DNA of 64,000 nucleotides from Gammaproteobacteria bacterium (GTDB taxonomy: Bacteria; Pseudomonadota; Gammaproteobacteria; Pseudomonadales; Pseudohongiellaceae), in contig JAPPOG010000028.1 in assembly GCA_028818225.1 (NCBI GenBank), positions 1-64,000 of the forward strand, written 5' to 3'. This document shows positions 1-1,940 of this stretch, piece by piece. Numbering within the stretch: the first letter of the stretch is position 1; each line of letters begins with the position of its first letter. A program made the position numbers and the translations under genes. The notes beneath the pieces were generated by a model that was not told where the DNA came from, did not search any database, and saw nothing but the letters and a program-made list of their open reading frames with translations.

Positions 1-234
1 TTCTCTAGCCTCCCAATAATTTTCATATCCAGGTACCTGCCAAATTACCCTAAAAGATTGAAAGCTTGTAACTAAATAGCTATTTAGCATTTTTAAACTT
101 TTATTATCATCTAGCTGGATTTCATTTTCTTTCAGCCATTCTTTAAGATTAAAACTTTCATTCTTTACAAAGCAATCAATGAAATCATAAAGCTGGCTTG
201 ATAGTTTTGTATATATTAGATGTATGTCTTTCAT
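1..234 (-). CDS. hypothetical protein, 3' end beyond window
   Basis: An open frame of 78 codons starts at ATG 234 and runs leftward off the window without a stop. A purine-rich GAGGG sits about 7 bases before the ATG. The product begins MKDIHLIYTKLSSQL and is rich in Asn, Lys, Ile and Tyr; no signal peptide or membrane segment is visible and I recognise no family. It is the most downstream member of a co-directional series of small genes on this strand (1518 to 1). The base composition is clearly more AT-rich than the genes from 2244 onward, which fits acquired DNA. Confidence 0.6.
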   Translation of the reverse strand, partial: MKDIHLIYTKLSSQLYDFIDCFVKNESFNLKEWLKENEIQLDDNKSLKMLNSYLVTSFQSFRVIWQVPGYENYWEARE

Positions 235-257
235 GATATGCCCTCATTGCACCATTC

Positions 258-634
258 TCATTTTACGAAGCTAACAGAACAAATAAGATTGGAGAAACAT
301 TTGTTTGCACTGTTATAACAAAGCTGGGTCGGGCTTGTTATCTGTATACATCGGCGCATCGGAAAGCCATCACAGGACTTCCCAATGTAATCAAAATATA
401 GGTTGTTGTCTTCTTTGCTATTAACGTTGACCACTCGAATCCAATACACGCTAACCGGGATATCAGCATCGCCCAAAGTAGCGTAGTCAAAAAGCCGCCC
501 GGTAAAGGGAATAGCCCTTCCGCTTGGGAAAGATTTCCATATACACCTTCAGGCGCAGTCTCCCGTTTGCCAGTTTTCCCTGCATGGCCGATTTTGAAAA
601 AATTTGTGAGTGGCTCAAACGCAGTCCATGCCAT
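258..634 (-). pseudogene. small ORF, possibly split by a frameshift
   Basis: ATG 634 is preceded by an excellent ribosome site (AAAAGGA, 8 bases upstream), so translation very probably begins here (MAWTAFEPLTNFFKIGHAG...). That frame continues to 338, but its second half (LLWAMLISRLACIGFEW) reads like out-of-frame sequence. The overlapping frame to 258 reads more like protein (VSVYWIRVVNVNSKEDNN, then NLYFDYIGKSCDGF) but has no start of its own apart from an internal TTG. The simplest reading is one gene with a -1/+1 shift near 480-520. The alternative is that only the 98-residue frame 338-634 is real. No family recognised. Confidence 0.4.
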
Positions 635-673
635 TTTGTAGTCCTTTTAAGTTAACTTACACTGCTATCGTTA

Positions 674-1081
674 TCATCTTAAGCAAGAACACAAATCTGA
701 AAGCATAGTCCCAAGCTCTTCTAGTCTTTCTTCTTGTTTTCCTTTAGAGCAAGATGCAAAGTCCCATGACCTATTATCATAAGCAGCGTAATAGCTAGAA
801 ACATTATCAAATAGCGCCTCGTCCTCGTCTGTTAATGCTTCTGTTTCTGCTCTGTCGAGTGTTTTTTCTATCTTATTTCTTAAAACTTCTTCTTGTTTGA
901 CGTAGGGTGGCATTGAATCAAAAAGCGAAACATAGTTGGATATCAAAAACTCGATAATGCTATCGATCTCCTCTTGCGAATCAATATTGTCAGGGAGTTG
1001 GCTGGTTAACTGAGCATAGGTAATTATGCTGTTATTTACTCTTGCCCATGAGAGCAGCGTATGCAGCGCCTTATCTTTCAT
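674..1081 (-). CDS. stand-alone sigma-70 region 1.1-like protein
   Basis: A 135-residue protein. Residues about 6-58 (LHTLLSWARVNN, then TYAQLTSQLPDNI, DSQEEIDSIIEFL) line up with region 1.1 of RpoD, where E. coli has TYAEVNDHLPEDI, DSDQIEDIIQMI. In primary sigma factors this acidic helical domain occupies the DNA channel of RNA polymerase until promoter DNA enters. Nothing like sigma regions 1.2-4 follows; the rest is an acidic helical stretch (EKTLDRAETEALTDEDEALF) and a Cys-containing tail. The ATG overlaps the stop of the preceding 59-codon gene by one base (TAATG), so the two are translationally coupled. Homology is by eye. The role (RNA polymerase binding or modulation) is inference. 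Confidence 0.6.
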   Translation of the reverse strand: MKDKALHTLLSWARVNNSIITYAQLTSQLPDNIDSQEEIDSIIEFLISNYVSLFDSMPPYVKQEEVLRNKIEKTLDRAETEALTDEDEALFDNVSSYYAAYDNRSWDFASCSKGKQEERLEELGTMLSDLCSCLR

Positions 1082-1260
1082 TATGAATCCTCTTTATCGG
1101 GTGATTTAGTCGGTAGCAGTACGCTCATTCTCTGCTCAAGCTCTTCTTTGCTTGCTCTCGCTTTGCGATAGGTCTCCTTTGCTATTTGTCTGGCTTCCTC
1201 GAGCTCGTTAGGCGGTTTTGGGCGTACCTTCTCGCCAGACGCTTCATATTTGATGCACAT
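1081..1260 (-). CDS. 59-residue charged helical protein
   Basis: ATG 1260 has a strong ribosome site (AGAAGGA, about 6 bases upstream) and the frame ends in TAA at 1081-1083, sharing its last base with the start of the sigma-1.1-like gene. The product is a highly charged, mostly helical peptide (LEEARQIAKETYRKARASK) with no membrane segment. No family recognised. The coupling and good initiation site argue that this is a real gene despite its size. It lies 11 bases downstream of the DUF4177-like frame. Confidence 0.55.
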   Translation of the reverse strand: MCIKYEASGEKVRPKPPNELEEARQIAKETYRKARASKEELEQRMSVLLPTKSPDKEDS

Positions 1261-1271
1261 AAGTGTCCTTC

Positions 1272-1518
1272 TTAGTCTAATGGCCTCTTAAAATAAAAGG
1301 TTTCAACAGTGCTAGAGCCTTCGCTATCGGGCACTACGCCTTGATAGGCTGCTACTGAAACAAGCTCCCAGCCATTCCTACCTACGCTAGCCAGATATTC
1401 CTCTTTTTTCTTGGTATCTCTCGTGCTTCTCATATTTTTCTGTATGTAGAGGTATGACGTATTCCACCTCTGTATACTCCCATTGCTGTGCAGCTTTTTT
1501 TATTGTTCCAAGTAGCAT
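1272..1518 (-). pseudogene. DUF4177-like protein, frameshifted
   Basis: ATG 1518 has an AAAGG ribosome site and reads MLLGTIKKAAQQWEYTEVEY..., the WEY start typical of DUF4177 proteins. That frame hits TAG after about 43 codons. The next frame over, beginning around 1430, supplies the other half of the domain: YLASVGRNGWELVSVAAYQ and then ETFYFKRP, ending in TAA at 1272. Together they give the usual WEY...NGWELVSV...FKRP layout. The 247-base span is one base off a multiple of three, as a single indel would leave. The shift lies in or near the A-run at about 1430-1440. It may be a true mutation, a programmed shift or a sequence error. DUF4177 has no settled function. Confidence 0.6.
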
Positions 1519-1940
1519 TTCGTTTTACCTTTCAAATTCATGCTAGTAAATCTGTGCCGCTACTATATCTAATTCAAGAGGCAAATCGCCCCCCTGCCTC
1601 CTACTTTTGGGTGCGGCTCGGATATTTTTGAGTCTCAGGTTCGAGTCCTGGTGTTGACCCGATTGACTATCTGGGGTCGATCTATGTTGGGTATTTAGGT
1701 GGGTTAAATATATTATCGCATCTAACGTCATGTTTTTATTGATATCATGGAACCGCCCGCTGGCACCAGCTCTGATTGGATTGGACAAACGAAACTAATC
1801 GATATGGGATAAATCGAAATATTTCAGGAGCCAGGTAATTGCCCATAATCAACTATATGCAGGAAGAATATTGCCGATATGTCTCTAAGGAAGTTTGTTC
1901 TTAGCAAATTACCGCCGAAAGGCTTCCGGGGTTCAAATAA
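1519..1940. other. intergenic region with tRNA-like T-arm
   Basis: No convincing gene. At 1635-1651 there is a canonical tRNA T-arm: stem TCAGG, loop TTCGAGT, stem CCTGG. It is followed by seven bases that could be an acceptor strand (1652-1658). I find no matching 5' acceptor, D-arm or anticodon arm upstream, and no CCA. It is best read as the 3' remnant of a tRNA gene, the usual target of integrases, at the inner edge of the AT-rich small-gene cluster. The rest holds no recognisable signal. Confidence 0.35.

Follow-up and report, generated by a model that had tools for sequence, protein, structure and literature searches.

To our knowledge, region 1.1 of sigma-70 has so far been studied as a tethered part of the sigma factor. 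In one study, this region sits in the downstream DNA channel of E-sigma70, where it is proposed to mimic DNA, and has to be displaced for DNA entry; in the same study, isolated region 1.1 supplied in trans restores full inhibition by the phage T7 protein Gp2 to holoenzyme lacking region 1.1, and lets Gp2 fully block E-sigma38 (PMC3778932). Here, we describe a 64,000-nucleotide stretch (hereafter the window; contig JAPPOG010000028.1 of assembly GCA_028818225.1) from a marine gammaproteobacterium of the Pseudohongiellaceae, in which an open reading frame (ORF) at 674..1081 on the minus strand encodes a protein of 135 residues. On sequence grounds, this product is confirmed as a free-standing homologue of region 1.1. 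It resembles region 1.1 of group 1 sigma-70 factors (Pfam family Sigma70_r1_1, PF03979; residues 1-100 of Escherichia coli RpoD) in its profile score and its acidic linker. Unlike RpoD, it is without regions 1.2-4, it carries new predicted helices at its C-terminus, and it is borne on a genomic island.

PF03979 matches residues 2-79 of the protein on positions 3-74 of the 81-position profile with 29.1 bits (E 9.4e-07), above the curated cut-off of 22.5 bits, and with 29.7 bits in a search of the whole genome. In local alignments, the protein scores 98 with the RpoD N-terminus of a genome from another family of the order (L004), 72 with that of a second locus (L014), and 70 with that of its own host, while the highest score of shuffled sequences against these three N-termini was 53 (500 shuffles each). 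Against NCBIfam RpoD models this stretch scores 19.8 and 15.7 bits, well short of their full-length cut-offs, as expected because regions 1.2-4 are absent: the ORF ends at 135 residues and its Pfam matches include no other sigma family. A group 1 sigma-70 factor (RpoD) requires regions 1.2, 2, 3, and 4 after region 1.1, and by its sequence the protein has none of them. A preliminary description, made from the letters alone, had proposed both the presence of region 1.1 and the absence of the later regions, and both hold. The best phmmer match in the PDB had an E of 0.29, and a single-sequence search therefore misses the likeness there; the best match in PHROGs (E 0.13) was a sigma factor family.

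In alignment A3, residues 1-59 can be laid against the RpoD sequences with no gap inside, and the invariant columns include L10, T21, Y22, A23, L29, P30, I42, I43, and P58. The preliminary description had correctly paired TYAQLTSQLP with TYAEVNDHLP. The motif that it gave as DS-x2-I-x2-II is in fact spaced DS-x3-I-x2-II; the DS lies one residue out of register with the DS of RpoD, and I39, I42, and I43 are in register. The protein is acidic, in keeping with the acidic plug named in that description, with 26 D+E and 13 K+R in 135 residues, as compared with 22 D+E and 5 K+R in the first 100 residues of the host RpoD. The product may be divided into a region 1.1-like winged helix (residues ~2-58), an acidic linker (~59-100), and an unmatched helical C-terminus (~100-135); a search of 182 fetched loci gave no relative for residues 61-135 (best E 0.49). 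An unaided AlphaFold model, with a predicted local distance difference test score (pLDDT) of 45, was not used. The model built with RpoD relatives (pLDDT 73) predicts helices at 2-15, 22-28, 36-48, 59-78, 85-102, and 116-132 and strands at 19-21 and 52-54, with a helix-strand-helix-helix-strand core as in region 1.1. It superposes on E. coli region 1.1 over 52 residues at 1.6 Å, a fit toward which the relatives' alignment biases the model. The preliminary description would have given up the assignment if no profile matched and the fold differed, an outcome that was not obtained.

Given that region 1.1 acts in trans in vitro, a free acidic homologue could load into a polymerase without a resident region 1.1. 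The reading that we tentatively place first is that island cargo here supplies a region 1.1-like plug in trans to RNA polymerase lacking its own. The product, a sigma region 1.1 domain on its own, would most likely work in trans: its acidic winged helix would dock in the RNA polymerase channel that receives downstream DNA, with a preference for enzyme in which no region 1.1 is resident (core or an alternative-sigma holoenzyme), and would there hinder promoter opening or DNA loading, while the added C-terminal helices might replace the tether normally supplied by sigma. If the gene is expressed, the island might thereby restrain transcription by the host or by an invading phage, and an island in a marine bacterium may in this way carry its own brake on transcription. 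By analogy, the predicted binding to polymerase has one biochemical precedent (PMC3778932); the competition with sigma, or mimicry of it, suggested in the preliminary description is treated here as a hypothesis. With a natural free region 1.1, trans action of the plug could be probed in cells, together with the question of which holoenzymes it affects.

Several features of the same alignments and model speak for a rival reading: the C-terminal part is new and modeled as helical, identity to RpoDs is only 19-26% (alignments A2 and A3), and several near-invariant RpoD positions are changed (EQGYLTYAEVNDHLP vs NNSIITYAQLTSQLP; A3). These would suit a winged helix that derives from region 1.1 but has been repurposed to bind DNA or a partner protein (for example a partner held by the C-terminal helices) and not RNA polymerase. 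We regard such repurposing as unlikely, if worth keeping in view, for the acidic character and the similarity of the linker have been kept, and a DNA binder would need neither.

The frame itself was given exactly in the preliminary description. It starts with ATG and runs through 135 codons, intact and with no internal stop; GAGG lies 7 bases 5' of the ATG, and the start overlaps the stop of an upstream 59-residue ORF by one base (TAATG), an overlap that probably couples translation of the region 1.1 gene to that of this ORF. Codon usage favors the annotated frame, which scores -0.006 vs -0.093 for shuffles (standard deviation 0.044), with a margin of 0.129 over the other two frames; control pieces (n=91) average 0.228, having been cut from the training ORFs themselves. 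The setting had been described as an AT-rich cluster of small genes, which fits positions 1-1081 (38-39% G+C vs 47.1% in the whole window) but not the upstream ORF, at 47.8%. The proposed coupling to a 59-residue partner agrees with the overlap, but the partner is a copy of a recurring leader module and is not dedicated to this gene.

In its own genome, PF03979 finds only RpoD and the 135-residue protein, and among the 25 of 84 genomes of the genus searched with it, this one included, no other has a second match. Matching genomes numbered 8 of 293 in a sample of the order (this genome and seven of one other genus) and 11 of 369 in a sample of the class (this genome and ten others). For each of the 17 other matches, alignment to the host RpoD extends for hundreds of residues; all are therefore RpoDs, none of them free-standing. 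Two short frames were rejected as further examples: a 124-residue frame (genome G316, locus L027, contig C10) is actually rpoD, which falls into two frames directly behind region 1.1, and another (G297) is cut by a contig end.

A search of 299 genomes of the phylum with PF03979 gave the best matches only, so that weak short ones could be hidden there. Among these best matches, twelve genomes besides this one had two; ten were examined, and the other two (G956 and G845), with listed frames all of at least 672 residues, were left out. Three of the ten second matches are clean short ORFs, all alphaproteobacterial (G860, G758, and G826): two have 99 residues, in Methylobacterium and a relative, and one, in another genus, has 56. 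The rest comprise three matches with an internal stop (G853, G971, G919), one cut by a contig end (G854), an ORF of 283 residues (G874), and two long frames (G992, G950). The two 99-residue proteins are similar (L102, 1378-1677; L103, 1381-1680), and one of them shares 98% identity with part of a Methylobacterium bullatum record. A free region 1.1 kind thus exists in sequence. Like the 135-residue protein, these consist of region 1.1 alone, with no other sigma regions in the ORF; they match the profile within positions 3-58 only, as compared with 3-74. The 99-residue proteins have ~40 extra N-terminal residues and the 56-residue one has none, whereas the addition in the 135-residue protein is C-terminal. 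No match was obtained by tblastn of the 135-residue protein against six alphaproteobacterial loci with E up to 10. We know of no function for the alphaproteobacterial proteins; a literature search on the product name of free region 1.1 proteins in NCBI annotation returned no paper, nor do the best-ranked literature matches describe a natural protein of this sort. As far as we know, then, this kind is uncharacterized, and the protein described here is a variant of it.

The preliminary description had compared the protein with phage-encoded polymerase inhibitors. It is like T7 Gp2, which works through region 1.1 (PMC3778932), in being a small protein that is proposed to act on the downstream DNA-binding channel; the two differ in that Gp2 binds the beta-prime jaw, whereas the 135-residue protein is itself a region 1.1 homologue and, used as a query, found no phage relative. 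A phage link was not borne out: 50,697 phage records gave one match at chance level (E 8), plasmid records gave none, and the setting is the end of an island in a tRNA gene, in which no phage structural gene was recognized. Peptide patterns matched 3 stretches in IMG/VR viral contigs and 105 in genome contigs, none of them confirmed, and patterns derived from A2 matched 44 stretches in IMG/VR viral contigs with 0 confirmed. The N-terminus of the host RpoD, by contrast, hits 9 phage records, 81 plasmid records, and 27 IMG/VR loci when used for the search; where annotated among those listed, they are RpoD, RNA polymerase, or sigma factor, and the one inspected of the 9 phage records has a sigma frame of 475 residues. 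The Methylobacterium protein had no phage match.

The right border of the island lies at 1753..1768 (plus strand), an attachment-site (att) remnant corresponding to the 3'-terminal 16 bases of tRNA-Leu(CAA) and identical at 15/16 bases to the tRNA-Leu(caa) of three relatives (L113, L122, L128); in the search of the own genome this match (C72:1753-1775) reached 87% with an E of 0.57. A tRNA scan of the window found none. In relatives, tRNA-Leu(CAA) lies near a leuB-like gene in 6 of the 22 loci scanned, which reach ~1.5 kb past the match; in the flank comparison, 10 of the 29 relatives' loci, with the leuB-like gene on the minus strand, were uninformative. On another contig of the same genome (C44), an intact tRNA-Leu is followed by two ORFs without family matches. 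The relative L113 (genome G304) has the empty site: C44 aligns with L113 positions 5-1034, the tRNA ending at 1033, and alignment with the window starts at 1130, which leaves a gap of 97 bases behind the tRNA end in L113 and of 95 in the window. Window positions 1 to ~1752 hence form the right end of an island lying in tRNA-Leu(CAA), and by its position the region 1.1 gene belongs to the cargo, at the distal island end. No integrase was seen at either border, and the interior of the island lies outside these contigs; the mode of insertion is accordingly inferred from the att remnant. The available island sequence also bears on the idea that the protein is half of a split sigma, lending region 1.1 as a positive factor to a partner sigma that lacks it. 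Free region 1.1 can act on such holoenzymes in vitro (PMC3778932), but neither the ORFs within window 1-1752 nor those in the island part on C44 (1.4 kb) include a recognizable sigma gene, the rest of the island lying elsewhere, and we consider a split sigma highly improbable.

The 59-residue leader ORF (1081..1260, minus strand) belongs to a module that consists, in order, of an upstream block P (1502..1606), the start of the leader ORF, the repeats R1 (1143..1213, the middle leader part) and R2 (1079..1152, the 3' part up to the cargo start codon), all on the minus strand, and then the cargo start codon (alignment A1 of 11 copies, and nhmmer). In nhmmer on 10 loci and the window, in which seed rows, the window among them, match by construction, the E values for the window were 1e-18 for P, 1.1e-13 for R1, and 4.5e-18 for R2. 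By blastn, P is 72.6% identical over 62 bp to contig C52 of the same genome, R1 87% to C52:847-914, and R2 90% to C52:81-149; the DNA parts of the leader recur on C52 and C36 at 82-90% identity. P is perhaps a promoter; a scan with the sigma-70 consensus gave 4 sites vs 5.0 expected, none of them in P. One copy of the peptide, used as a query, matched 6 of the 84 genomes from the genus, this one included, at two to four places each. The module-bearing stretches come from uncultured Pseudohongiella (three stretches in two assemblies) and from Gammaproteobacteria UBA7449 (one stretch).

Differences between copies are commonest at third codon positions (124/270 and 204/467, as pairwise counts that are not independent), and the ratio of nonsynonymous to synonymous differences (pN/pS) is 0.33 and 0.45 for two leader parts, a pattern which suggests that the leader is translated and under constraint as a protein. 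Copies of R2 precede at least five unrelated genes, namely a small multidrug resistance transporter family gene (L068), genes for a 68-residue protein with the same one-base stop-start overlap (L072), a 388-residue protein (L073), and a small protein (L067), and, in the window, the region 1.1 gene. Its recurrence points to a way in which foreign cargo genes of this marine genus may come to be expressed while lacking their own promoter or ribosome site. The module recalls integron cassettes with leader ORFs, in which a recurring element stands beside exchangeable cargo genes, but its repeat is found 5' of the cargo and codes for a peptide. An integron reading of the module was rejected, with no systematic search for attC sites, as none of the 6 module-bearing genomes, 4 of them under 90% complete, exceeds the cut-off of the integron integrase model TIGR02249; weak matches occur in 3 of the 6 and also in all 14 control genomes. 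In the order sample, which includes only two further genomes of the genus, the leader peptide was found in 1 of 293 genomes, the host itself; searched for as a degenerate pattern, it had 0 matches in IMG/VR viral contigs, and no report of Pseudohongiella leader modules stands among the best-ranked literature matches. The module may be the more unusual part of the locus, compared with the region 1.1 gene. The combined picture, of a mobile island with its own region 1.1 plug, a trans-acting transcription brake made from a sigma fragment and expressed by a genus-specific, non-integron, plug-in leader that stands before unrelated cargo, is a speculative one and unlikely.

The genes on either side of the region 1.1 gene and its leader are both apparently split over two frames. 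Downstream, at 258..634 (minus strand; ORFs 338-634 and 258-476), neither piece has a Pfam match; the other gene, at 1272..1518 (minus strand), lies between P and R1 and comprises ORFs 1387-1518 and 1272-1433, the latter with a below-cut-off similarity to Sp36/DUF4177 families (NF053529, 29.1 bits, cut-off 50). These two genes make decay a live option, in which the region 1.1 gene would be neutral cargo, a captured 5' fragment of rpoD, or a relic without a useful product. Together with the lack of a second copy, or of any matching free-standing one in the sampled genus, order, and class genomes, they count in favor of decay. On the other side, 135 open codons, a ribosome site, an intact leader, and coding-like codon usage have been retained, and the higher score with the RpoD of another family than with that of the host (98 vs 70) shows that the gene is not a recent copy of the host rpoD. 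Decay is in our judgment improbable, and the plug acting in trans is retained as the first reading.

The remaining features of the island end are minor. An ORF at 1..234 (minus strand) runs off the contig end after at least 78 residues and has no Pfam family above cut-off. A PADLOC match to a CARF protein (E 0.0065 over 32 residues) was taken as chance. At 1632-1653 (plus strand), inside the island end, 22 bases resemble the T-arm of a tRNA-Met located downstream of rpoD on contig C54 (21/22) and are perhaps an older att remnant.

Other module-bearing loci offer further observations. In L072 (7435-8448), the leader N-terminus runs in frame into a predicted protein of 337 residues. Short ORFs resembling the terminase small subunit (PHROG 309) lie in module-bearing arrays at L071 3477-3728 (E 1.8e-06) and L067 8841-9098 (E 2.3e-04), hinting at phage-related islands. 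On contig C36 of the host genome (L046, 645-2402), a P4-type integrase gene directly 3' of tRNA-Pro(ggg) is followed by a copy of the module and by a membrane protein gene at the contig end. Finally, two tyrosine-recombinase-like genes, under the integron integrase cut-off, stand beside the tRNA-Met on C54 (L187, 397-1461 and 1865-2446) and possibly mark another island border.
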